In this document: piece by piece, positions 30,568-48,611 of the stretch
How positions within the stretch are numbered: the stretch's first letter is position 1
Layout: the number at the start of each line of letters is the position of its first letter
Position numbers and translations under genes: made by a program
The notes under the pieces: model-generated
Database searches by the model: none
Told to the model about the DNA's origin: nothing
Seen by the model: the letters and a program-made list of their open reading frames with translations, nothing else
Origin: Firmicutes bacterium HGW-Firmicutes-2
Lineage (GTDB): Bacteria > Bacillota > Clostridia > Lachnospirales > Vallitaleaceae
Length of the DNA stretch: 64,000 bases
Assembly (NCBI GenBank): GCA_002841495.1
Contig: PGZV01000010.1
Span: 1-64,000, forward strand
Reading direction: 5' to 3'

Positions 30568-30975
30568 TTAGGTTGACGACTTGAAGTTTTTATCTTCTGC
30601 CATGATGATTACACTTGCTGCGCTAATGATTGTTTCAGTATTTCTTCTTATTTGTTCAATATCACCGATATTCTTATTCCGTTCCGCTAGTTGTGATGCT
30701 TGTTCTTCAAGTATTTGTATTATATTCTTTTCCATTTTTTCTTCTCCTATTTCTTCAACTTTTATGGTTGTCATTGGTGGCCGTTTCCTTTCTTTAATAA
30801 TATATTCGTTAAAGCCTTCATCATCTATGGGTTCTAATCCTATTTCCTTTCTAATATCATTGATGTTTGCTCTTCCTGTACTGATTCTGTCATATGCATC
30901 TTTTACATTTTTTGCAAACGTTCTGTCCCATGCATCTTTCATATTTTTTGCAAACGCTGTGTAATCATGCTTCAT
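30568..30975 (-). CDS. Hypothetical protein with internal 11-residue duplication and portal-like motif
   Basis: About 135 aa from the ATG at 30975. FAKNMKDAWDR and FAKNVKDAYDR are tandem copies, mirrored by a 33-nt DNA repeat. ISTGRANINDIRKEIGLEPIDD closely resembles the C-terminal motif of phage portal proteins (NEVRAxENLxPI type). It may derive from a portal fragment. The C-terminal part is helical. Unknown function. Confidence 0.5.
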   Translation of the reverse strand: MKHDYTAFAKNMKDAWDRTFAKNVKDAYDRISTGRANINDIRKEIGLEPIDDEGFNEYIIKERKRPPMTTIKVEEIGEEKMEKNIIQILEEQASQLAERNKNIGDIEQIRRNTETIISAASVIIMAEDKNFKSST

Positions 30976-32668: not shown

Positions 32669-34240
32669 ATGAAGGCTGTTATATATGCCAGATATTCTAG
32701 CGACAACCAGCGCGAGGAAAGTGTTGAAGCTCAGATTAATGCCATAGAAGAATATGCTAATAAGAATAATCACATAATTCTTAAACACTATATAGATAGA
32801 GAACTGACTGGGACGAATGACAATCGTCCCTCTTTTCAATCCATGATTAAAGATAGTAAGACTGGTTTATTTGATCTTGTTCTTATCCATAAGACGGATA
32901 GATTTTCACGGAACAAGGCCGACTCGGCAATTTATAAGCGAATGCTTTTAGAAAATGGCGTTAAGGTTATACCTGTTGCTGAGTCTTTTATATCTGATAG
33001 TCCTTTTGGTGTTGTTATGGAAGGGATGCTTGAAGGCTGGGCCGAGTATTATAGCCTGAACTTGTCTACAGAGGTTAAGAAGGGCCAGAATTCTAACATC
33101 AGAAAGTTTGATACTATCGGTAAAGTTAAGCATAATGGCGGAAAACCACCTTTTGGGTATGTTATTGATTCTGAAGGATATTATGTAATTGATGATCATG
33201 AGGCGATTGCTGTTCGCAAGATATTTGATATGTATTTGAATGGATATGTTTATAAGGATGTTATGGAGTGGTTAGACCAACTTGGTTATCGCACTAAGTA
33301 CGGTAAGCCTTTTGGTAAGACAAGCATACACGGCATTTTACATAACCCTAAGTACTGTGGTGTCTATACTTATCGTAATAAAAAACGTGTGTATGTTGGT
33401 GGAAGATATAAGGATATTGAAAACCCGGATAAGATTGTTATTGACGGCGGTATACCGGCAATCGTATCAAAAGAAGATTTTGAAAGGATCCAATTGATTA
33501 TGGCTGAGAATAATAAGAATAGTAAGAGAAGTGCTTCGAAAGAAATTTTCATCTTATCCGGAAAGGTTTTTTGTTCTAAATGCGGATCCAAGCTCGAATC
33601 TAATAGCTATATGGGTGGACGTGACCGAAAGCATCAATATCGTAATTATCGTTGTTCCGGTAGGAAGAAGGGTTTAGAGTGCGATCTTAAGCCTTATGAT
33701 AAAGAAACCCTTGAAATGGATGTATGCTTGCAGCTTGAGAAGGATGTTTTTAATGATGATCAAATTGATATTCTTTCAAAAGAAATTTACGAAGCTTTTA
33801 AAAAGCAATCTTCTACTTCAGTTAGTACTTTAAAATCGTATAATACTAAAAAGGCTTCTCTTGAGCGCCAAATTGAAAACTTAACGACCGCTCTGGCCAA
33901 TGGTGCCGCTTTTAATTCTGTCTATTCTAAATTGAGCGACTTAGAACATCAAAAGGATATGCTTGAGTTTGAAATTAAGCGTGAGCAGTACTCTTCTGAT
34001 CGTATCATGTCTCTTGAGTCTATTCGTGATATCCTCTTAGTTGGTAAAGATATGCACTTAAAAACGGACAAAGAAAAAACGACTCTCATCAACATGTTCG
34101 TTGAAAGAATCGTTTTAGGTGATACTCTTGAAGTCCGTCTTAACTTTAAGCCGGACAGGTATATGGATAGTGGAGGTGAGGGGAATCGAACCCCTGTCCG
34201 AAAACCCGTTCATGAAAGTTTCTCCCATCAGAGTCATTAA
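32669..34240 (+). CDS. Large serine integrase whose 3' end is host tmRNA sequence
   Basis: 523 aa. The catalytic resolvase domain (residues 2-145) opens MKAVIYARYSSDNQREESVE. Next come the recombinase domain (about 160-270), a zinc ribbon CSKCGSKLE...YRCSGRKKGLEC (about 300-350), and a coiled-coil region (about 390-445). The last about 20 codons lie past the attachment core and are read from the antisense of ssrA. In the excised circle the same frame would instead end WFFLSLSS and stop at 105-107. So the protein's extreme C-terminus differs between phage and lysogen. Confidence 0.92.
   Translation: MKAVIYARYSSDNQREESVEAQINAIEEYANKNNHIILKHYIDRELTGTNDNRPSFQSMIKDSKTGLFDLVLIHKTDRFSRNKADSAIYKRMLLENGVKVIPVAESFISDSPFGVVMEGMLEGWAEYYSLNLSTEVKKGQNSNIRKFDTIGKVKHNGGKPPFGYVIDSEGYYVIDDHEAIAVRKIFDMYLNGYVYKDVMEWLDQLGYRTKYGKPFGKTSIHGILHNPKYCGVYTYRNKKRVYVGGRYKDIENPDKIVIDGGIPAIVSKEDFERIQLIMAENNKNSKRSASKEIFILSGKVFCSKCGSKLESNSYMGGRDRKHQYRNYRCSGRKKGLECDLKPYDKETLEMDVCLQLEKDVFNDDQIDILSKEIYEAFKKQSSTSVSTLKSYNTKKASLERQIENLTTALANGAAFNSVYSKLSDLEHQKDMLEFEIKREQYSSDRIMSLESIRDILLVGKDMHLKTDKEKTTLINMFVERIVLGDTLEVRLNFKPDRYMDSGGEGNRTPVRKPVHESFSHQSH
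34171..34182. other. Right prophage attachment core
   Basis: TGGAGGTGAGGG, identical to 68-79, forms the 3' end of tmRNA on the minus strand. Both tmRNA function and the integrase reading frame pass through it. Confidence 0.85.
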
Positions 34241-34519
34241 TTTGACATTCCCTCTGCCAAGCGCCTAATGACAGGCTCATGGTTTTAGTAGCTTAATTAG
34301 GTTCTTTTACTACCTCAAAGCATTGGTAGAAAAGTTCCTCGCCCAATCGTTGCCCAGACCCTAAGTGGCGAGTTGCCTAGGAAGGACACCGCAGCCTAAG
34401 CTGCGAAAGCTAAATTATCTTCAGCGTTTAATTTAATTTTACCAGCTTTTAACGTAGCTCCGGTGTCTACGGATGGCTTCCTTCACTGCAGTGATCCCCG
34501 TCGAAACCTGTACACCCCC
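34171..34519 (-). ncRNA. ssrA: tmRNA (trans-translation RNA)
   Basis: The 5' end GGGGGTG pairs with CACCTCC next to discriminator A; the T-arm AGGGG-TTCGATT-CCCCT is present. The tag frame reads GKIKLNAEDNLAFAA then TAG, probably preceded by the alanine from charged tmRNA. CCA is not encoded. tmRNA rescues stalled ribosomes with SmpB, which is encoded 46 bp upstream. The prophage restores the 3' end exactly but moves its terminator 34 kb away. Confidence 0.95.
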
Positions 34520-37224: not shown

Positions 37225-37249
37225 TTTCTTCACTTCCTAATCTTAGTAT

Positions 37250-37368
37250 GGTTAAAGGGTCAAAACTAAGTTTCACTAAATTCACATACAATATATAGCT
37301 TACGTTGATACATTCATAACTATATATTGTATGTGAAAATTCAACTATATAGTTTTGACACTTTAACC
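37250..37368 (-). repeat. Palindromic element, copy 1
   Basis: 119 bp. The ends GGTTAAAG and CTTTAACC are inverted; the central arms TTCACATACAATATATAG (37281-37298 and 37320-37337) are an 18-bp perfect inverted repeat. It is flanked by the direct repeat TTAGTAT (37243-37249, 37369-37375), like a 7-bp target duplication. It lies between the rnr promoter and start. Confidence 0.85.
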
Positions 37369-37381
37369 TTAGTATACCTCT

Positions 37382-37410
37382 ATTATAGAGTACTTCGACG
37401 CTTTTGTACA
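37382..37410 (-). promoter_or_regulatory. Probable rnr promoter
   Basis: On the minus strand, TGTACA, 17 bp and TATAAT. The transcription start would fall at the edge of the palindromic element, so the element would form the 5' leader of rnr mRNA. Confidence 0.65.
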
Positions 37411-37459
37411 TACTACCACTAAATTGTAAATTTTTGCAAACTCTTTATGACAGTCGCAA

Positions 37460-37499
37460 AAAGAAACGGCTATGATTTTTCATCCATAACCGTTTCTTT
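37460..37499 (-). terminator. Terminator of the VWA protein gene
   Basis: Arms AAAGAAACGG and CCGTTTCTTT with inner ATG/CAT pairing, followed by a T tract on the minus strand. It lies 46 bp after the stop of the gene at 37545. Confidence 0.85.
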
Positions 37500-37544
37500 G
37501 CTGACATCTACTTTTCTTAGAATATAGCTTTATAAAGGAGGTAT

Positions 37545-40331
37545 TTACAAAATGTTCTGGTCTAGCAAATCATTAAGGTCTTCGTTTAAGTATTCCACAA
37601 CCTTGACGGTGTAGTTCCCAAAAGCATCCACGGCATAAATTGTAATCGCACCCTTGGCTACAAACTTGTTGAGTTGTGTTGTTAATGTAACTTTCATATC
37701 GGTATCCAGCAATACTTGATTACCTTGATTGTTTAAAACACGTATAGACTGCTCTTGTGTTGCTGCTAATACCTGATTATAAGTCAACTTTCCTTCAAAG
37801 ACTTTATAGGTCACAATGGTCGTCTTATCCGTTATGGTGATATTGTGGTTAATTAGATTAACGGAGGATTCTAGGGGATCGACGACCACACCTATTACCG
37901 GTGCCACTGTATCTACAAGACCCACTGTTAACATCTTGGAAGTAATAGCTGATACAAGATCCGTGCTATCACCTTGTTCTCTGGTTCGAATCTGATTAAT
38001 ACCAACTTTAAAATCATAATCTAATTGATGGCCTAAGGTTAGTGGTGGGGTCAATACGCCATATGCCACATATTTACCTGTTGGTAATTGACTACCGTTA
38101 TAGCTTAATCGCCCACTGTTCATAGTGAATCCAGGTACCACATTACCAGAAGCGTTTCTTACATCTGCGTTTCCACCGGAATTATTTAAGACAAATGTAT
38201 GGTTGGAACTTGCAAAGTCATCAAATAAGGTCATTTCTGCTTTTGTTAGTGGTCTAACCAATTCGAAGCTGATTTTGGTTTGTGTTGGTTCGTTGAGTTG
38301 ATCGATACTATGATTTGAACTACCATCGAGTGTCGTAATGGCTATGTCTTTAATCTTTAACCGCTCAAAATTAACTACCTTATCAATTTGTGGTGTTGCG
38401 TGACTCAGTACCGCATCAAATACCATATTCATGTTGCCATCTAGTGTAATACCACCGCTTTGACTGGTCATTAAATAACCGCTTGGTACAGGTATGGATA
38501 TTTTATGAAGTCCACTGGTAATACCTTCTACGATAATGACACCACCTTCAACAGTATAAGGTCTTAACACCCCGTTTACATAGAGTTCTACATCTGTAAT
38601 GGCTGTATCAAAATCATCTGAAAAGTCAAGGGTTAACCGACCCATCTTAATATCAATGGCAGCAGGATCAAGTCCTAAGTTGGCATAATCAAAAACATTG
38701 CCTACAGAATTTGTCAGTTGATAATCTACATTATGGTCCAGTCTCAAGTTACCTTCTTTTATGGCTTTAAGCTCTAATGGCACTTCTTTTTGCCATGTAA
38801 GATTCTCACTACCTACCACACTTTTTGATTCTAGAATGTTTAAGGATAGTTTATTATTGACGATACCCCAACCTGCACCAGTACTTATAGGTTGAAGTGT
38901 TACAAATTCACTAATAGTCTGTCCTGATGTGGATTTGGTCAGATTCTTTACGTTAATGGTCTTGTAGTCAAACGGCGCTTCATTATTATAACTCAGACTA
39001 TGATTCATCTTAATAATGTCGCCGACTAAATAACCGAATTGGTTGTTTGTATAAGTAACATTCACATTCACTTGAGGTTGATTCGTCCTTGGTGGTATGA
39101 CGGTCATATTCTGTCCAAGTAATTCTATTACCGTATTGCCACTTAGATCTCTATAAGTTAACATAGCATTCACGTTAATCGGAATCTCAACTTGACCACT
39201 ACCTGTTGGATACACATGGTCTTTAACCTTAACTTTATAACCAAAAGCATAATTGGTATCTACAACATTGCCCAAATCCCAAGTGATGACTTGTCTGCCA
39301 TGAGCATCTACAGTCAAAGTATAGTTCTGAGGTACGATACTGCCTTCAACAACCTCAAACTCTTTCTCAATGGTTTCTACCACTTTTGCATTGGTACCGA
39401 TATAGTTGAGCTCTCCAACAATGGTATCAAAAATGTGTGAAAGTTGTCCTGTTTGTGACGCTTCAAAAAGACCGGCATTTTGAGCTCTGACCAATGTGTC
39501 TCTTGCCACATTCTTAGTTGCAACGTATTCAATGCCTTCAAAGTAACCGACAGCTATGACCTCTGCTACTGACTGGGCCGATTGTCCGGCTTGATAAGCA
39601 GCGATTGTATTGGTATTATGACTTGTGGGGTAGTTTAGATTCTTCTGGCTGTTACTACCACCTTGGGTTGCTACGCCATCTGTAAAAAGTATAATGACAT
39701 TCTGTCCTGATGGTGTTCCTGTGATTTGCTTATGGGTTACTGTGGTCTCCGCATATTCAAAAGACTCTTTTATATTTGTGGCCCCATCAGAAATTTGCCA
39801 GAACTCCCATGCATACCTATAGCCGTTGTTCCTATAGGCTGAGAAATTACTATGATAATGCGTATTCAGATCCCTGTATTGAAAAACTTTTTGGATTTCA
39901 TTCAATGTCTCTGTTTTGTTATTATAATACTTCCAATTATCATTCTTATTGGCATTGGTACCAAAAGAAACAATGGCCATATTGGAATCCGGATAGGTTG
40001 CATAGACTTCATTCACAAAATTATTAACAGCTTTCCATACAGCATCTGCAACCGGTTTGTTGGTGGAAGGGTCAATGCGCAGCATGGAATTGGAACGGTC
40101 TAGAACCAACACAATGTCAAGGCCTGTGGTCACCTGTTCATAGGATACGGAAAAATTATAACCGATGTCAAAGATTCTCTCACCGGCATCCGATAATGTC
40201 ACCTCCGGTGTATCTTTCGTTATGGTTACCGTAGTATTCACATTCCCATAAATAGGCATACCCATCTGTAATACCCAGACAAATGCCATTAAGAGTCCTA
40301 TCTTCTTATTGATGTTCGCGGTTACTTTCAT
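37545..40331 (-). CDS. Secreted von Willebrand factor A domain protein
   Basis: 928 aa. The signal peptide (residues 1-28, IGLLMAFVWVLQMGMPIYG) is followed by a VWA domain at about 65-310 with an intact metal-ion site (VLVLDRSNSM, the later IILFTDGVAT). Beta-rich repeats follow, without an LPXTG or membrane anchor. Likely an adhesive or wall-associated exported protein. A GGAGGCG site and a TTGACT-18-TATAAT promoter lie upstream. Confidence 0.85.
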   Translation of the reverse strand: MKVTANINKKIGLLMAFVWVLQMGMPIYGNVNTTVTITKDTPEVTLSDAGERIFDIGYNFSVSYEQVTTGLDIVLVLDRSNSMLRIDPSTNKPVADAVWKAVNNFVNEVYATYPDSNMAIVSFGTNANKNDNWKYYNNKTETLNEIQKVFQYRDLNTHYHSNFSAYRNNGYRYAWEFWQISDGATNIKESFEYAETTVTHKQITGTPSGQNVIILFTDGVATQGGSNSQKNLNYPTSHNTNTIAAYQAGQSAQSVAEVIAVGYFEGIEYVATKNVARDTLVRAQNAGLFEASQTGQLSHIFDTIVGELNYIGTNAKVVETIEKEFEVVEGSIVPQNYTLTVDAHGRQVITWDLGNVVDTNYAFGYKVKVKDHVYPTGSGQVEIPINVNAMLTYRDLSGNTVIELLGQNMTVIPPRTNQPQVNVNVTYTNNQFGYLVGDIIKMNHSLSYNNEAPFDYKTINVKNLTKSTSGQTISEFVTLQPISTGAGWGIVNNKLSLNILESKSVVGSENLTWQKEVPLELKAIKEGNLRLDHNVDYQLTNSVGNVFDYANLGLDPAAIDIKMGRLTLDFSDDFDTAITDVELYVNGVLRPYTVEGGVIIVEGITSGLHKISIPVPSGYLMTSQSGGITLDGNMNMVFDAVLSHATPQIDKVVNFERLKIKDIAITTLDGSSNHSIDQLNEPTQTKISFELVRPLTKAEMTLFDDFASSNHTFVLNNSGGNADVRNASGNVVPGFTMNSGRLSYNGSQLPTGKYVAYGVLTPPLTLGHQLDYDFKVGINQIRTREQGDSTDLVSAITSKMLTVGLVDTVAPVIGVVVDPLESSVNLINHNITITDKTTIVTYKVFEGKLTYNQVLAATQEQSIRVLNNQGNQVLLDTDMKVTLTTQLNKFVAKGAITIYAVDAFGNYTVKVVEYLNEDLNDLLDQNIL

Positions 40332-40432
40332 ACTTTAACGCCTCCAGTTCCTATTTCATTTCATTGGGCTTATGATCATCTGATTTATACTCTCTCACAT
40401 TAAGTTTTTCATTTATTTGTGTCGTATAAATA

Positions 40433-40462
40433 ATTATATACCCCTTATACACAGCTAGTCAA
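40433..40462 (-). promoter_or_regulatory. Promoter of the VWA protein gene
   Basis: TTGACT and TATAAT on the minus strand with an 18-bp spacer, about 100 bp before the ATG. The remaining part of 40332-40772 holds the -10 box and palindromic element of the divergent SLH gene and nothing else I recognise. Confidence 0.7.
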
Positions 40463-40600
40463 TTAAGATTACGAATATTCACACAAACCAATACCATATA
40501 ACTATACCATAGGACTTATAGCTCATATGTTTTTAAGTTTTTTAACATATTTTTAGATACATGTTCACACTTTGTTCAATATTAATTCTTGAAAAAAGCA

Positions 40601-40606
40601 TATAAT
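40601..40606 (+). promoter_or_regulatory. -10 box of the SLH gene
   Basis: TATAAT lies 9 bp before palindromic element copy 2. A clear -35 box at the right distance is missing; AATATT occupies that place. Confidence 0.4.
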
Positions 40607-40615
40607 TGAATAAAT

Positions 40616-40732
40616 GGTTAAGGTGTTAAAACTAAATAGTTGAATTTTCACATAGAATATATATTACGAATGCATCAACGTAATTTATATATTCTATGTG
40701 AATTTAGTGAAACTTAGTTTTGACCTTTAACC
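40616..40732 (+). repeat. Palindromic element, copy 2
   Basis: 117 bp with GGTTAAGG/CCTTTAACC ends and central arms TTCACATAGAATATATA (40647-40663, 40686-40702). Compared with copies 1 and 3, a C-G pair in the stem is replaced by G-C on both arms. The direct repeat ATAAAT flanks it (40610-40615, 40733-40738). It is in the same orientation relative to the downstream SLH gene as the other copies are to theirs. Confidence 0.85.
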
Positions 40733-40772
40733 ATAAATGTGAATCCATCCAGTGCAAAATAGGAGGTAAATA

Positions 40773-41987
40773 ATGAAATCAAGTAAAAAAAATGTCATTT
40801 CTATCATCATGGTTCTAACAATTCTCATAACAGGATCTTTCACCCATGTATATGCCGATGTCGCACCCCTATACAAAGACACCACCACCCTAGAATGGTA
40901 TTACGGTTCTCTTGACATCTTGTCACAGGAAAATATTATTACCGGCTTCACAGACGGTACTTTCAAGGGTAATCAAAAGCTGACTATTGACCAATATATA
41001 GCCATCTTATGTCGCTTGACCGGCAACGATGTTGGTAACGCTGATGGTTACTGGGCTGCGAATTACATTGCCTTTGCAAAAAATCAAGGTTGGTTGGATG
41101 ATGCAAGCTATACAGTATACAGCACACCTATTGATCGCTATGAAGCCAGTCGACTTACCATCAAGGCTATGAATCTGGTTCCGACAGACTATCCGGATGA
41201 ATTCCTTGACTATAGTATCTATATCAATGACTTTAATATAATGCCACAGGATCAACGCACAACTGTACTCTTATCTTATGCCCTAGGTATCATTACCGGT
41301 TATCCTGACAATTCTTTTAGTGGCAACAATACATTAACACGTGCTGAGGCAGCCGTAATCAGTCATCGTGTTTTTGATCCTAAGGTCAGAAAACTTGCCT
41401 TATCTCCAAGTAAAGCTAGGGCTCTTGCTTCATTATTTGCATCCAATCCGGAACTTTTTGCTGGTTTTGCTGGAGAAATGACCATCATCAATAACCAGCT
41501 CATCTTTATTGATGGAGATGCAACAACAAATCTAAGCAATTCCGGCTTGGATCCTCAGGTTGGTAATATTACGGAAAACATCTTAGCTGATGCCCTCATT
41601 GACAGTTCTGCTGATGAGACGGATAATACTTTATCCGCCGGTTATAACTATGGCGTCTTCAATATCAATCTCTTAACAGAAGATAATGATAGCCTTGTTA
41701 TACTCGATGCACAAAATGGTAAAAAAATCATCGTATTAGACTTAGTACTCATGCAAGGATCTGATGGTAATCTTAAGCCGGGTGCTTCTGAGTTCATACT
41801 TTTGGTTTGTAAAAATATTGATTTTGAAAATGCCAGTGCCATACACAATTTTATTATTACAAATTATCAAGGCCGTGCATCCTTACCATCTTCAGGTGTT
41901 AGTGTTTCCTATGACAGTACGGATATTCTTATGACTGCTTTAGTACATGACCACAATGTGGTTAAGGTTGAGTTTACCCTTAAATAG
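40773..41987 (+). CDS. SLH-domain surface protein
   Basis: 404 aa. The signal peptide (about 1-28) is followed by three SLH repeats in residues 30-205 (ENIITGFTDGTFKGNQKLT; ALGIITGYPDNSFSGNNTLTRAEAA), which bind pyruvylated wall polymer. The C-terminal half has no known domain. AGGAGG precedes the ATG. The gene has palindromic element copy 2 as its leader. Confidence 0.88.
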   Translation: MKSSKKNVISIIMVLTILITGSFTHVYADVAPLYKDTTTLEWYYGSLDILSQENIITGFTDGTFKGNQKLTIDQYIAILCRLTGNDVGNADGYWAANYIAFAKNQGWLDDASYTVYSTPIDRYEASRLTIKAMNLVPTDYPDEFLDYSIYINDFNIMPQDQRTTVLLSYALGIITGYPDNSFSGNNTLTRAEAAVISHRVFDPKVRKLALSPSKARALASLFASNPELFAGFAGEMTIINNQLIFIDGDATTNLSNSGLDPQVGNITENILADALIDSSADETDNTLSAGYNYGVFNINLLTEDNDSLVILDAQNGKKIIVLDLVLMQGSDGNLKPGASEFILLVCKNIDFENASAIHNFIITNYQGRASLPSSGVSVSYDSTDILMTALVHDHNVVKVEFTLK

Positions 41988-42027
41988 AGCATGAAAAAGT
42001 GTAACTTCGTCCTATATTAATAAAATA

Positions 42028-42070
42028 AAAAACCAGGTAGAGGCATATTATATGTCTTCACCTGGTTTTT
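42028..42070. terminator. Bidirectional terminator between SLH gene and era
   Basis: Arms AAAAACCAGGT and ACCTGGTTTTT with further CATA/TATG pairing inside, between two convergent genes. Confidence 0.88.
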
Positions 42071-42106
42071 ATTTTATATTATTTTTATGTTGTTTCTTAT
42101 GAGTAT

Positions 42107-43006
42107 TTATTCTTTATTCGTGTAACCGTAATTCTTTAATAAGTAGTCACTGTCGCGCCAGTCTTTCTTGACCCTGACCCATATCTTCAAGTTAACTTTT
42201 GAACCCAGTAGATTTTCCATATCTCTTCTTGCCATTGAACCGATTTTTTTAAGCATAGCCCCTTGCTTACCGATCACCATGCCTTTGTGGGAGTCTTTCT
42301 CGCAAACAATGGTCGCATCAATATCAATGATGGCCTGACTCTCACGTTCTTTCATTTGATCAATGACAACTGCTACACCATGTGGTATTTCCTGTTCCAT
42401 ATTTAGCAATACTTTTTCACGTATCAGTTCCGCACAAATCTGTCTTTCCGGTTGATCTGTAACCATATCTTCCGGAAAATACATAGGACCATCTTCCAGT
42501 ACATCAAAAATTCGGTCTAATAGAATATCCGTATTCTCACCTTTAAGCGCCGATATTGGAATGATATCCTTGAAGCTATACTGGTCCTTATAGGTGGCGA
42601 TAACTTCCAGAAGTTCATTTTTTGCGATGGTATCCATCTTGTTAATGACTAGAAATACCGGTGTTTCTACCCTTGCTAATCGCTCTATAATGTAGCGATC
42701 ACCTTTACCAATTTTTTTATCCGGCTCAATTAGCCACAATACCGCATCCACTTCATTCAAGGTCGTTTCTGCACTGGTATTCATGAATTCCCCAAGCTTT
42801 GTCATTGGTACATGGATACCAGGTGTATCAATAAAGACAATCTGACCTAAGTCATTGGTCAAGATGGTTTGAATCCGGTTTCTTGTTGTTTGAGGCTTGT
42901 CTGACATAATGGCAATTTTCTGTCCGATTAAGTGATTCATTAATGTTGATTTACCAACATTCGGACGACCGATTATGGTTACAAATCCTGATTTTTTATT
43001 GTTCAC
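42107..43006 (-). CDS. era: Era, ribosome-assembly GTPase
   Basis: 299 aa. GRPNVGKSTLMN (G1), DTPGIHVP (G3) and NKMD (G4) form the GTPase; the KH domain is at the C-terminus (GKQGAMLKKIGSMARRDMENL). It assists 16S rRNA maturation. GTG start after AGGAGGTAATGC. It follows the BadF-family gene by 13 bp, likely co-transcribed. Confidence 0.97.
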   Translation of the reverse strand: MNNKKSGFVTIIGRPNVGKSTLMNHLIGQKIAIMSDKPQTTRNRIQTILTNDLGQIVFIDTPGIHVPMTKLGEFMNTSAETTLNEVDAVLWLIEPDKKIGKGDRYIIERLARVETPVFLVINKMDTIAKNELLEVIATYKDQYSFKDIIPISALKGENTDILLDRIFDVLEDGPMYFPEDMVTDQPERQICAELIREKVLLNMEQEIPHGVAVVIDQMKERESQAIIDIDATIVCEKDSHKGMVIGKQGAMLKKIGSMARRDMENLLGSKVNLKIWVRVKKDWRDSDYLLKNYGYTNKE

Positions 43007-43019
43007 GCATTACCTCCTG

Positions 43020-46000
43020 TTATGCATACTTCTCGTCTGTAGAAGCTACATCTTTCTTTTCGTCTAATAGAACTGTCTTTTTCTCAAGGTTACTAAAGGC
43101 AACCGACAGCATAAGTTTCACGCGATTAAGCTGATTAACTTCACTGGCACCCGGGTCATAATCTATGGCGGCTATATTGGCCATTGGGTACATTTTCTTA
43201 ATAGGTTTAATCATCGATTTCCCAACAACATGATTGGGTAAACATCCAAATGGCTGCACACAAACCACATTCTCAACCCCGTCTTTAACAAGTTCCACCA
43301 TCTCACCGGTTAAAAACCAACCTTCACCGGTTTGATTTCCAAGTGATATAAGTTGCTTGGCAAGCTTGCCTTTTTCCTCGATACTTGATGGTGCATGAAA
43401 ATGTTTGGATGCATGAAGTGCCTTACCGGCTGCTTGTCGGTACCATGACATAATCTTAATGGCTATGTTGGCGCCTCGCCATCCTTTTTTTGTACCGTTT
43501 AGCTTTTCATATCTGAATTTATAATTATAAGCGTTGTATAGATAAAAGTCCATTAAATCCGGTAATACTACTTGTACACCTTCATCTTCAAGTACTTGAG
43601 CAAGCTGATTGTTGCCTGTCGGGTGATACTTAACCAATATTTCTCCTACAATTCCCACTTTAGGTTTGATGATATCTTTACGGGGTAACTTGTCAAATGC
43701 CTCTACAATCTCTATACATTGTTTTCTAAAGGTTATGATGTTACCACTTATAATGGTTGCCATCGCTTTTTGTCGCCACTGATCATACAAAGCGTTAGCT
43801 GAGCCTACCTCGGCTTCATAAGGCCTGGTTGCATATAAGACCCTCATGAACAGGTCACCAAATACTGTTGCCATTAAAGCCTTGTGAATCAAAGAAGGAC
43901 CAATCTTAAAGCCCGGATTCCCTTCAAGTCCAGATGCGTTAATGGATACAACAGGAATATGACTCATGTCTGCATCTCTTAGTGCTTTACGGATAAAGCC
44001 GACATAATTGGATGCACGACAACCTCCGCCAGTCTGAGACATGAAGACAGATACTTGATCCAGGTCATAATCCCCTGATTTTAAAGCCTCCATAATCTGG
44101 CCGATTACCAATATAGATGGGTAACAGGCATCGTTGTTTACATAGGTTAAACCTACATCAATGGCTTTATTATCCACCATTGGCAAAACCACCACATTAT
44201 AACCTAAAGCTCTAAATCCTACTTCATAAAGATCAAAATGTATCGGTGACATCTGCGGTGCAATGATAGTATGTTTGGCTTTATGAGCTTTTGTAAATGG
44301 CACGCGAGTCGTTTCAATTTCTTCCTTATGTAAGCTTTTTTTCTGCTTTAATCTTTCTTCTAATGCCGCTTTTAAGGAACGCATTCTGATTCGAATAGCA
44401 CCTAGATTACTGCCTTCATCAATCTTGATCAGTGTATAGATTTTACCATGTCTTGCCAAGATTTCCTGTACTTGATCCGCCGTAACTGCATCCACACCAC
44501 ATCCAAAAGAGGTGAGTTGAACCATTTCAAGTTGCTTATGCTTACCTACCACTTCAGCAGCCGCATACAATCGACTATGGTAAGCCCATTGATCTAGTAC
44601 TCTAAGTGGTCTTTTCACTTGACTTAGATGACAGATGGCATCTTCCGTTAGCACAGCCATACCAAGTCCTGTGATAATATTGGTTAAACCATGATTGATC
44701 TCTGGATCCACATGATAAGGTCGACCACCAATGACCATGCCAATTTTATCATTGTCCTCAAGCCATCTGATGACACGTTCGCCTTCTTGTTGGATATCTG
44801 CTCTGGTTTTTTCTTTTTCTTGCCATGCCAGTCTTGCTGCTTCAAGAACCTCAGCTTCCGAATGCCCTTTTATCTCAAATTCTTCAAAGAGTCGTACCGC
44901 CAATCGTTCCGGTTCTTCCATCGGCAAGAAGGGACTCATTAACTCCACCTCATTATTTACGATGGCATCCGTATTATGCTTAATGGTCTCAGGATAACTG
45001 GTGACGATGGGACAGTTATAATTATTGTCTGCACCTTCTATTTCTTTGACCTCAAAAGGTACACTGGGATAAAAGATAAAATCCACTTTTTTCTCAATCA
45101 ACTTCATAATATGACCGTGTACGATTTTTGCAGGATAACAAGCCGATTCAGAGGGTATGGTTTCTATACCAGCTTCATAAACGGCTTTATTGGATCTAGG
45201 TGATAAAACCACTCTATAACCCAAATGTGTAAAGAAAGTATGCCAATAAGGATAGTTTTCATACATATTCAGAACCCTTGGAATACCCACTGTTCCTCGA
45301 GGTGCTTCTTCTACAGATAAGGGTTTATAGGCAAAGAGTCTTTTATATTTATAAGTAAAAAGATCCGGTATGTCATGATTTTTTATAGCCATACCCGCCC
45401 CTCGTTCACATCGGTTACCGGATACAAATTGACGACCATCCGAAAAATGATTGATGGTTAACATACAACGGTTACTACACAGTTCACATCTGGACATCTC
45501 ATTGTGTGCCTCAAAATGTTCTAATGCTTCTCTTTTTAGTATCGTGGACTCAGATGTTTGTATACTACGTTCTTTGGCAATCAAAGCCGCACCAAAAGCT
45601 CCCATGATACCGGCAATGTCCGGTCTAACCACTTCTTTACCTGAAATCATCTCAAAAGCTCTTAAAACGGCATCATTATAAAATGTACCGCCCTGTACAA
45701 TCACTTTATTCCCAATTTGCTTAGGGTCTCTTATTTTTATGACTTTCTGTAGTGCGTTCTTAATAACTGAGTAGGATAAACCTGCAGATATTTCGCCGAC
45801 TGTGGCACCTTCTTTTTGAGCCTGCTTAACCCTTGAGTTCATAAAAACCGTACATCTAGAACCCAAATCTACGGGTGCTTCCGAAACAAGGGCCGCTTTT
45901 GCAAAATCCTGTATGTTCATTTCCAAAGATTGAGCAAAGGTTTCAAGGAAAGAACCACATCCTGAAGAGCATGCTTCATTCAAGAGTATGTCATCAATAA

Positions 46001-47306
46001 CTCCGTCTCTAATACGCAGACATTTCATGTCTTGTCCGCCGATATCTAGTATGAACTCTACACCAGGCAAAAAGAACTCGGCTGCTTTGAAGTGAGCCAT
46101 GGTCTCGATTTCGCCGATATCCATATGTAAGGCTTCTTTGATCAATCCTTCACCATAACCTGTAACACAACTGTTTTTTATCTTTGTACCGATCGGCATC
46201 TTTTCATATATTTCCATTAAGATTTCTCTACATAACGCCAAGGGCTTCCCTTGATTGCTACCATAATAATCATACAGAAGCTGTCCTTGATCATCAATGA
46301 GAACCAACTTGGTTGTGGTTGAACCTGCATCTATACCTAAGTAACAGTCACCTACATATTCTTCAAGATTCCCTTTTACAGCTTTGTGTTGTTGATGCCT
46401 CTCATTAAAAATGTCTAAGTCTTCTTGTGACTCAAATAATTTTTGCAGTCTTGCAACCTCATTGATACCGGATGCTTTAAGATGCTTAACCCTTCTGTAG
46501 AGCTCTTCAAACCTTAAAGGTTCTTCTTGTGCTGAAGCCATAGCAGCACCAGTCGCAACAAAAAGTTGAGAATGATCCGGGATTATGGTTTGTTCCTTAG
46601 TAAGGTTCAAGGTATCTACAAAACGGTTCCTAAGCTCCGATAAGAAATATAACGGTCCACCTAAAAAGGCAACATGCCCACGAATGGGTTTACCACATGC
46701 CAGTCCACTAATTGTCTGATTAACTACCGCTTGGAATATGGAAGCGGCAATGTCTTCCTTGGCTGCGCCTTCATTTATAAGAGGCTGAATATCCGTCTTT
46801 GCAAAGACGCCACATCTGGCTGCAATCGGGTGAATAACCTTATATGATTTTGCAAGTTCATTCAGGCCCATGGCATCCGTCTGTAATAATGACGCCATTT
46901 GGTCAATAAAAGCGCCTGTCCCACCAGCACAGGTACCATTCATACGTTGATCGATTGAACCACTTTCAAAATATGTGATTTTTGCATCCTCACCACCGAG
47001 TTCAATGGCAACATCTGTTTTTGGTATGAGATGCTCCACTGTTTTTGCACAAGCTACGACCTCTTGTATAAAACCAACATCCAACCATTTGGAAACAGAG
47101 AGTCCACCTGAGCCTGTTGTAAGAATGCTGATCATGGCTTCCGGGTAATGCTCATACGCCCTGCCCATCATGGATAAAACAGTGCTCTTAATATCTGATA
47201 AATGCCTTTTATATTTACTATATAACATCTCTCCTTGGCTACTTAAGACAACCATCTTGACGGTTGTCGATCCAATATCCAAGCCGATTTTTAAATGTTT
47301 TTCCAA
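43020..47306 (-). CDS. Giant 2-hydroxyacyl-CoA dehydratase activator-like protein (BadF/HgdC plus DUF2229)
   Basis: 1428 aa. Two ASKHA ATPase modules (GLDIGSTTVKMVVL with CAGGTGAFIDQM; GIDAGSTTTKLVLI with CSSGCGSFLETFAQ) are followed by DUF2229 (about 650-900) and an HgdB-like C-terminal part. The conserved Cys would hold a [4Fe-4S] cluster between subunits. Such fusions are widespread in Clostridia, with an unclear substrate. TTG start after AGGAGGTAATTT. Its leader carries palindromic element copy 3. Confidence 0.88.
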   Translation of the reverse strand: MEKHLKIGLDIGSTTVKMVVLSSQGEMLYSKYKRHLSDIKSTVLSMMGRAYEHYPEAMISILTTGSGGLSVSKWLDVGFIQEVVACAKTVEHLIPKTDVAIELGGEDAKITYFESGSIDQRMNGTCAGGTGAFIDQMASLLQTDAMGLNELAKSYKVIHPIAARCGVFAKTDIQPLINEGAAKEDIAASIFQAVVNQTISGLACGKPIRGHVAFLGGPLYFLSELRNRFVDTLNLTKEQTIIPDHSQLFVATGAAMASAQEEPLRFEELYRRVKHLKASGINEVARLQKLFESQEDLDIFNERHQQHKAVKGNLEEYVGDCYLGIDAGSTTTKLVLIDDQGQLLYDYYGSNQGKPLALCREILMEIYEKMPIGTKIKNSCVTGYGEGLIKEALHMDIGEIETMAHFKAAEFFLPGVEFILDIGGQDMKCLRIRDGVIDDILLNEACSSGCGSFLETFAQSLEMNIQDFAKAALVSEAPVDLGSRCTVFMNSRVKQAQKEGATVGEISAGLSYSVIKNALQKVIKIRDPKQIGNKVIVQGGTFYNDAVLRAFEMISGKEVVRPDIAGIMGAFGAALIAKERSIQTSESTILKREALEHFEAHNEMSRCELCSNRCMLTINHFSDGRQFVSGNRCERGAGMAIKNHDIPDLFTYKYKRLFAYKPLSVEEAPRGTVGIPRVLNMYENYPYWHTFFTHLGYRVVLSPRSNKAVYEAGIETIPSESACYPAKIVHGHIMKLIEKKVDFIFYPSVPFEVKEIEGADNNYNCPIVTSYPETIKHNTDAIVNNEVELMSPFLPMEEPERLAVRLFEEFEIKGHSEAEVLEAARLAWQEKEKTRADIQQEGERVIRWLEDNDKIGMVIGGRPYHVDPEINHGLTNIITGLGMAVLTEDAICHLSQVKRPLRVLDQWAYHSRLYAAAEVVGKHKQLEMVQLTSFGCGVDAVTADQVQEILARHGKIYTLIKIDEGSNLGAIRIRMRSLKAALEERLKQKKSLHKEEIETTRVPFTKAHKAKHTIIAPQMSPIHFDLYEVGFRALGYNVVVLPMVDNKAIDVGLTYVNNDACYPSILVIGQIMEALKSGDYDLDQVSVFMSQTGGGCRASNYVGFIRKALRDADMSHIPVVSINASGLEGNPGFKIGPSLIHKALMATVFGDLFMRVLYATRPYEAEVGSANALYDQWRQKAMATIISGNIITFRKQCIEIVEAFDKLPRKDIIKPKVGIVGEILVKYHPTGNNQLAQVLEDEGVQVVLPDLMDFYLYNAYNYKFRYEKLNGTKKGWRGANIAIKIMSWYRQAAGKALHASKHFHAPSSIEEKGKLAKQLISLGNQTGEGWFLTGEMVELVKDGVENVVCVQPFGCLPNHVVGKSMIKPIKKMYPMANIAAIDYDPGASEVNQLNRVKLMLSVAFSNLEKKTVLLDEKKDVASTDEKYA

Positions 47307-47386
47307 AAAATTACCTCCTGTTATCTATAACACATCTTGGTGAATATATCACCTGAAAATACTCTCAAATTATAATACCTCATTAT

Positions 47387-47504
47387 TGTCAAGATATCAA
47401 AACTAAATTTCACTAAATTCACATACAATATATAGATTACGTTGATACACTCATAACTATATATTGTATGTGAAAGTTCAACTCTATGTTTTGACACTAT
47501 AACC
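47387..47504 (-). repeat. Palindromic element, copy 3
   Basis: 118 bp. Central arms are identical to copy 1 (47418-47435, 47457-47474). The end proximal to the gene is more degraded (TGTCAAGATA instead of GGTTAAAGGG). Flanks CATTAT and AATTAT match at 5 of 6 positions. Sits 2 bp from a TATAAT box. Confidence 0.82.
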
Positions 47505-47505
47505 A

Positions 47506-47533
47506 ATTATACCATATTAATTTTTAATGTAAA
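47506..47533 (-). promoter_or_regulatory. Promoter of the BadF-family gene
   Basis: TTTACA, 16 bp and TATAAT on the minus strand, immediately before palindromic element copy 3. Confidence 0.6.
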
Positions 47534-47660: not shown

Positions 47661-48611
47661 GTGGAAAAGATTTTCAAGATTATGATTGTTGAGGATAGTC
47701 GGTTATACCAAAAGTACTTAACAGACCTCATGATCAAAAATAATTATGAATATATATGTGCCTTTAATGGCCTAGAAGCCATAGGTCTCTTAAGAGAAGA
47801 AAAACCCGACTTAATCTTGTTAGATGTACACCTTCCAGGTTGTAGTGGTTATGATGTTTGTGAGCATGTTCGTAAAACACCAGAGACTTATCACATACCG
47901 ATTATTTTTATCACTTCTAACAATGATCAAAATGATATTGTAAAAGGTTTCCAATTGGGTGGTAACGATTATGTTACAAAGCCTTTTAATGAAACCATCT
48001 TAGAGTCTAGAATTACCAATCAGCTGGACCATGTCTATAACCGTAAACTTCTTAATAGTTATATCCAAGAATTGGAATCCATCAATACCAAGTTAAAAGA
48101 TGAAAAAGAACACTCCGAATATTTGGCTTCTAGAGATCATTTAACCGGTCTTTATAACCGACGTTTTATACAATCCACATTAAAAGAACTTCTGTTGGAT
48201 CATCAACTGGATCAGACTTCCATTTCCCTTGCTTTATTCGATATTGATGATTTTAAGTTGGTCAATGATCAATACGGTCATCCCTGCGGAGACTATACCT
48301 TGAATGAAGTCGTCACACTCATCCAATCCAAAATCCGTGATTATGATTATTTATCACGGTGGGGTGGCGAAGAATTCTTGTTGGTCTTACCTCATACCAC
48401 CAAAGAATCTGCCCTACCTATTATGGAAAGAATCTTAAACACCGTTGATGCACATACCTTTACATATGATAAGTATAGTTTCAAATTAACGCTTACCTGT
48501 GGACTTTCTGATTTTAAGCCTAATGAGAAGTACATTTCGATTCTTAATCGAATCGATGAAGCCTTATACGAAGGAAAGCATTCAGGTAAGAATAGAATCA
48601 TTATAAAATAA
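47661..48611 (+). CDS. Response regulator with GGDEF diguanylate cyclase output
   Basis: 316 aa. The receiver domain (residues 5-125) has the phospho-acceptor Asp in LILLDVHLPG and the Lys in YVTKPF. A coiled linker leads to the GGDEF domain (about 150-316) with active-site GGEEF and an RxxD inhibition site nine residues before it (RDYD). It makes c-di-GMP when phosphorylated. GTG start after GAGGCGG. Confidence 0.93.
   Translation: MEKIFKIMIVEDSRLYQKYLTDLMIKNNYEYICAFNGLEAIGLLREEKPDLILLDVHLPGCSGYDVCEHVRKTPETYHIPIIFITSNNDQNDIVKGFQLGGNDYVTKPFNETILESRITNQLDHVYNRKLLNSYIQELESINTKLKDEKEHSEYLASRDHLTGLYNRRFIQSTLKELLLDHQLDQTSISLALFDIDDFKLVNDQYGHPCGDYTLNEVVTLIQSKIRDYDYLSRWGGEEFLLVLPHTTKESALPIMERILNTVDAHTFTYDKYSFKLTLTCGLSDFKPNEKYISILNRIDEALYEGKHSGKNRIIIK

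Follow-up and report, generated by a model that had tools for sequence, protein, structure and literature searches.

The bacterial MITEs outlined in the accessible text of PMC2229807 and PMC10969869 are shorter than 200 bp, encode no protein, carry terminal inverted repeats and are flanked by a target duplication; they are also A+T-rich and intergenic, and their transcripts are predicted to form a long stem-loop. The bcr1-bcr3 repeats of the Bacillus cereus group are likewise portrayed, in the available part of PMC3446304, as intergenic MITE-like repeats of Firmicutes that often lie within UTRs, and ERIC and RUP, as summarized in the accessible sections of PMC2229807 and PMC2267715, are single long stem-loops of 107-127 bp with many intergenic copies. 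The repeat family analyzed here resembles these systems in all of these respects. It was recognized in a stretch of 64,000 nucleotides (the window). A contig of Petrocella sp. FN5 is the closest relative with a name (smpB 99% identical), from which we infer that the host is probably a Petrocella.

The window contains three copies of the element, as proposed in the preliminary description (Table 1). Copies 2 and 3 are 91% and 94% identical to copy 1, respectively, with a BLAST E-value of 7.5e-41 each, which excludes a chance likeness. Each copy is preceded by an exact TATAAT motif and is in sense with the gene named for it in Table 1, the flanking 6-7 bp direct repeats are present, and the difference between the stem CATAC/GTATG and its counterpart CATAG/CTATG in copy 2 is a true two-sided change; the preliminary description was thus accurate for the window itself. 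It did not mention that copies 2 and 3 both sit in gaps between divergent genes, or the second TATAAT near the other end of copy 3. Copy 3 is antisense to the divergent gene at 47661, which this second motif faces.

Table 1. Copies of the element and associated motifs in the window. The strand listed for copies 1-3 is the family reference strand, as read by the covariance model.
Feature	Position	Strand	Remarks
Copy 1, full-length element, 119 bp	37250..37368	-	upstream of rnr; covariance model 137 bits
Copy 2, full-length element, 117 bp	40616..40732	+	upstream of SLH-domain gene, divergent gap; covariance model 112.7 bits
Copy 3, full-length element, 118 bp, one end decayed	47387..47504	-	upstream of BadF-family gene, divergent gap; covariance model 104.6 bits
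Direct repeat TTAGTAT, left of copy 1	37243..37249	.	7 bp, perfect
Direct repeat TTAGTAT, right of copy 1	37369..37375	.	7 bp, perfect; retained in Petrocella sp. FN5 flanking internally deleted copy
Direct repeat ATAAAT, left of copy 2	40610..40615	.	6 bp, perfect
Direct repeat ATAAAT, right of copy 2	40733..40738	.	6 bp, perfect
Imperfect direct repeat CATTAT, left of copy 3	47381..47386	.	5/6 match with right repeat
Imperfect direct repeat AATTAT, right of copy 3	47505..47510	.	5/6 match with left repeat
TATAAT, toward rnr	37382..37387	-	13 bp before copy 1; motif match only
TATAAT, toward SLH gene	40601..40606	+	9 bp before copy 2; motif match only
TATAAT, toward BadF-family gene	47506..47511	-	1 bp before copy 3, overlapping direct repeat; motif match only
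Second TATAAT, facing divergent gene at 47661	47371..47376	+	10 bp from the other end of copy 3; motif match only

When the whole window was compared with Rfam at gathering score, tmRNA was the sole match and no known Rfam family was detected at the repeats. The tmRNA gene (34168-34519) is overlapped by the end of a large serine recombinase gene (32669-34240; Pfam Resolvase, Recombinase and zinc ribbon), an arrangement reminiscent of an integrated element with its end at ssrA. Elsewhere in the window, a 36-bp unit occurs as two tandem copies that are 88% alike (30885-30956).

The window copies belong to a large dispersed family in the host genome (G000; 35 contigs, 3,524,282 bases). Searching it with a covariance model derived from 39 copies yielded 123 rows at E <= 1 with both strands counted; these collapse into 86 places, of which 83 have E <= 1e-3, the E-values being rough. 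BLAST with copy 1 gave 86 matches, both strands counted, and the end motif with up to three mismatches was found 222 times (106 + 116) versus five times (4 + 1) for the reversed control. The full-length element is about 115-121 bp long, has no coding capacity for a transposase and ends in GGTT...AACC (GGTTAWRGTGTCAAAA ends); its 19-bp outer stem, which constitutes the terminal inverted repeats, is paired in 88.1% of cells in Petrocella and 93.3% across genera. In the host genome, full-length copies of about 115-119 bp were distinguished from a class of about 83-84 bp and from still smaller ones of 50-60 bp, and tandem groups occur, such as three copies located a few bases apart at C2:62020-62382.

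The family is also multicopy in three more genomes of the host's genus and, within the order, in some further genera and families. It was detected by BLAST in 9 of 59 relatives and, using a broader model at E <= 1e-6 with stricter filters, in 13 genomes out of 246 from the order: four belong to the Petrocella group and six more to that same family, while three other families contribute one each. Genome G003 has 59 places at E <= 1e-6, and G006 and G013 gave 70 and 66 rows at E <= 1e-3, both strands counted; the copies considered from G001 and G002 are the best matches among those listed. No match to copy 1 was found in plasmid and phage collections.

Some divergent forms were observed in the course of these searches. 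In two copies of G013 (L272 and L273), both arms of even the outer stem have diverged, GATTATCGCC... pairing with its complement, and family remnants of about 60-75 bp lie beside genes resembling microcompartment shell proteins in two genomes (L281 in G015 and L291 in G005). Genome G027 contains two near-identical hairpins that are about as long as the family element and give weak matches to its model (L325:164-284 and L326:1514-1632), with GAGGGCACTGAAAAAGTA ends and apparent perfect 9-bp direct repeats (CCTGTTAAG and GTCATTATA). Their ends were found, among 39 genomes, in G027 itself and at one place in G052, and at one place in viral contigs; these hairpins may be either a relative of the family or a structural look-alike with another transposase.

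The mobility suggested by the direct repeats was corroborated by target duplication and one clean empty site, as well as by copies in tandem and copies with internal deletions. The 6-bp flanks of the copies in the host genome matched at 0.529, compared to 0.385 (sd 0.019) with shuffled partners, and were perfectly matched at 15 of 74 sites over 6 bp and at 7 of 74 over 7 bp. Perfect 6-mer flanks also exceeded expectation in G006 (11/36 versus 0.6), G013 (6/31 versus 0.4) and G003 (3/30 versus 0.2). A target duplication of 6-7 bp was thus seen in four genomes, with the same 6-bp peak in G003, G006 and G013 as in the host genome, and the duplicated targets read roughly A-T-N-N-A-T. One site (L181) is occupied in G003 as ATTATAT-element-ATTATAT and has a single ATTATAT in the host genome and in G001; this was the one clean case among three sites for which occupied and empty forms were compared by searches, and no clean junction was found at L004, at L186 or between L185 and L139.

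Comparison of shared sites also showed how copies change in place. The rnr copy of FN5 lacks about 74 internal bp between the same direct repeats as in the window, the FN5 SLH copy is a remnant, and FN5 has an extra copy without a counterpart in the window. Fourteen of 30 G003 copies lie at sites shared with the stretches of the host genome that were compared, which cover part of that genome, so that the other G003 sites are not callable as absent. At one shared site, a full copy in G003 corresponds to an 84-bp copy in the host genome. Shared and unshared sites, together with these differences in size, indicate that old shared insertions coexist with newer unshared ones.

A second end within about 2 kb was sought at 24 loci of the host genome, for which 100 of the 222 end-motif places were listed, and neither an autonomous element nor a transposase with the family ends was found. 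The same was true of seven loci inspected after the end motif was searched in 17 other genomes, where no autonomous partner was seen, and of viral contigs, where three end patterns gave four loci with the motif in unrelated sequence and no match to the model. Mobilization in trans is therefore unproved by these searches.

Taken as a whole, we consider it probable (roughly 0.78) that the family consists of non-autonomous, MITE-like palindromic DNA transposons, the arms of which are kept matched at the DNA level and/or by selection during mobilization. A transposase supplied in trans would recognize ends of about 36 bp, each comprising the 19-bp inverted repeat and a subterminal motif that is not the same at the left and right ends. 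The element inserts into A+T-rich, roughly ATNNAT intergenic targets with duplication of 6 (sometimes 7) bp, as the flanks show, and the comparison of copies shows that it can then multiply in tandem with sharing of the duplicated bases and lose its middle through internal deletion. Insertion beside promoters takes place regardless of direction, as counted below, perhaps partly because the preferred target resembles a -10 box. The sequence of the long stem changes while its pairing persists, as seen in the alignments, and the stem may be maintained by arm-to-arm template switching in hairpin DNA and/or by selection of the hairpin during mobilization. When transcribed, such an element must presumably form a strong hairpin in the mRNA, and effects on neighboring genes would be only incidental.

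The alternative that best withstands the data, although we regard it as unlikely, is that a folded nucleic acid has been selected: one strand, RNA or single-stranded DNA, would have to fold in order to move or work, and its changes would be fixed via G-U intermediates. This explanation draws on the strong covariation of the stem, which also counts in favor of the transposon reading and in which changes were found to be compensatory both within Petrocella and across genera, as the preliminary description had proposed from a single example. In Petrocella, 17 of 42 pairs were changed on both sides (51 cells versus 12.6 after shuffling) and 92.0% of cells were paired; across genera, the corresponding values were 33 of 45 pairs, 220 cells versus 67.6, and 92.3%, and pairing dropped to 32-43% in slid controls. 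The stems of G006, G013 and G024 are largely unlike that of Petrocella, yet they fold over the same length, and the left-arm bulge, the short right-arm bulge and the apical loop are broadly kept across genera, including several in which the stems have been replaced. Full-length copies also stay near 119 nt in several genera: 34 of the 36 copies taken from G006 and six of eight from G024 are 119 bp long, a length that is partly selected for by the choice of top model matches in these two genomes. Template switching alone would not keep conserved bulges and an apical loop, which counts against our preferred explanation. The covariation, genuine as it is, does not by itself establish an RNA.

A selected transcript should tolerate G-U over A-C mismatches. 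The raw cells of the inner stem are in line with this (50 G-U versus 8 A-C), but counting every column and type a single time gave ratios of 26:17 in Petrocella, 18:18 in G006 and 23:14 in G013; the raw excess is thus inflated because copies share ancestry. Changes private to one copy in the inner stem comprised 18 G-U, 20 A-C and 33 other single changes, and 22 private compensated doubles were observed there versus about 0.1 expected from independent mutation. Counted by distinct type, the compensated doubles comprised 27 transitions and 21 transversions. The FN5 copy was excluded from the strand counts, and three divergent or shortened G013 copies from the private-change and doubles-by-type counts. 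According to the accessible text of PMC8794818, a single template-switching event can create compensatory changes, and the transition type made up 61.0% of the instantaneous ones in RNA genes; the 27/48 transitions found here thus cannot alone separate the two accounts.

The comparison most favorable to a selected folded strand came from 19 pairs of copies at shared sites, in which 26 G-U and 9 A-C were counted (p 0.006), these pairs sharing copies, being non-independent and in some cases coming from tandem arrays; an earlier set of 13 shared-site pairs gave 13 versus 3 for the stem and 12 versus 1 for the outer part. Within our preferred explanation this excess is a difficulty, as it points to selection on one folded strand. 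Against such selection, the orientation of the element relative to genes is random, and at nine shared sites the identity of the element (0.845-0.983) does not clearly exceed that of its flanks (0.591-1.0), so purifying selection in place was not retained as an explanation. Inspection by eye suggested that GUUGA of the left internal loop might form a pseudoknot with UCAAC of the apical loop; this was also discarded, as several copies with UCUAC keep GUUGA. Overall, we lean toward maintenance of the stem at the DNA level, although selection may act at the RNA level.

An improbable variant is that the folded hairpin of one strand, and not just the double-stranded ends, is the substrate for movement. 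If true, it would explain the length of about 119 nt, the kept bulges and apical loop, and the stems that are replaced yet paired across genera, while the enrichment of TATAAT independently of orientation would follow if open promoters received insertions in their melted -10 region.

It is far less probable that the family works as an RNA structure in the form of a mobile 5' leader, directed to transcription starts and always inserted in one orientation. All three window copies fit this description, but the fixed orientation relative to the downstream gene was not found family-wide and is already refuted as a general rule. After arrays were collapsed, and with flanking genes called by a crude ORF script, both neighbors were in sense with the element at 22 of 74 sites and antisense at 26 (p 0.67), the rest being divergent (15), convergent (4) or without a called neighbor (7). 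Without collapsing, the 86 places comprised 26 sense, 29 antisense, 17 divergent and 4 convergent cases and 10 without a called neighbor. The orientation shared by the window copies is thus not a family trait.

The proposed targeting of transcription starts fared better, in that TATAAT is enriched near a minority of insertions, but it holds for about one side in five. A gene-pointing TATAAT lay within 15 bp upstream at 16 of 75 gene-facing sides, compared to 4.3 at random positions in the same gaps (14 versus 4.2 in a slightly different construction of the test). By distance, 8 versus 1.9 were found at 0-6 bp and 9 versus 2.4 at 7-15 bp; leaving out the copies of the window (70 sides) changed these values to 7 versus 1.8 and 6 versus 2.2. 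However, the reverse-complement control ATTATA was also raised (8 versus 2.8, and 6 versus 1.6 at 7-15 bp), as were other A/T hexamers near insertions; the test keeps the duplicated bases on the upstream side, which favors A/T motifs there, and the duplicated target is itself A/T and resembles a -10 box. Furthermore, where a TATAAT lay within 40 bp (21 sides), the element was sense at 13 and antisense at 8. We read the TATAAT excess as real but modest, due in part to target preference and in part to promoter proximity. An oriented 5' leader is not supported as a rule, although the enrichment, which counts against the transposon reading, leaves room for a promoter-related role. The case calls for caution, since three nearby copies suggested an oriented promoter-targeting RNA element and genome-wide counting disagreed.

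Lastly, a folded imperfect palindrome with bulges, a variable middle and conserved ends could also be an integron attC or similar recombination site, or a hairpin of the REP/REPIN type mobilized by a Y1 transposase. The former belongs to a cassette array with an integrase and the latter has a RAYT transposase nearby, in both cases without target duplication. Either identity is very unlikely here, because the present family shows dispersed single insertions, 6-7 bp target duplications and a clean empty site, and neither attC recombination nor REPIN movement is known to make such duplications.

Among the systems compared above, MITEs are thus the closest, with the differences that the related insertion sequence was not identified here and that full length stays at about 119 nt despite stem replacement in several genera, set against the general features given in the accessible text of PMC2229807 and PMC10969869. 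The bcr1-bcr3 repeats occur in other hosts and have a length of 147 (PMC2267715, available part), a distinction drawn from their published descriptions. Membership of ERIC, RUP or Correia was rejected, because the family has no terminal TA, unlike the 5'TA3' termini of ERIC and RUP that the accessible text of PMC2229807 and PMC2267715 gives as defining (PMC2229807 for the defining feature), and has GGTT...AACC ends with ATNNAT-like duplications of 6-7 bp. The consulted portion of the Petrocella description mentions numerous transposases and no palindromic repeat family, and no description of the present family was found in the literature on MITEs and Petrocella that was searched, subscription journals being mostly outside this search.

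These data add a well-populated MITE-like family in under-studied anaerobes, and its occupied, deleted and empty sites make its movement testable. As in the template-switch hairpins described in the accessible part of PMC8794818, compensatory doubles would need no G-U intermediate if one arm were copied from the other; unlike the RNA genes of that report, the substrate here would be a mobile palindrome, for which the process is putative. Strong covariation, which is usually read as proof of an RNA structure, may here have a DNA-level cause, and the family is a good natural system in which to separate selection of a fold from templated correction of a palindrome. Compared with what has been described, these repeats seem to form a MITE-like palindromic family that is itself new but of a familiar type, a genomic parasite and not a switch built for gene control.
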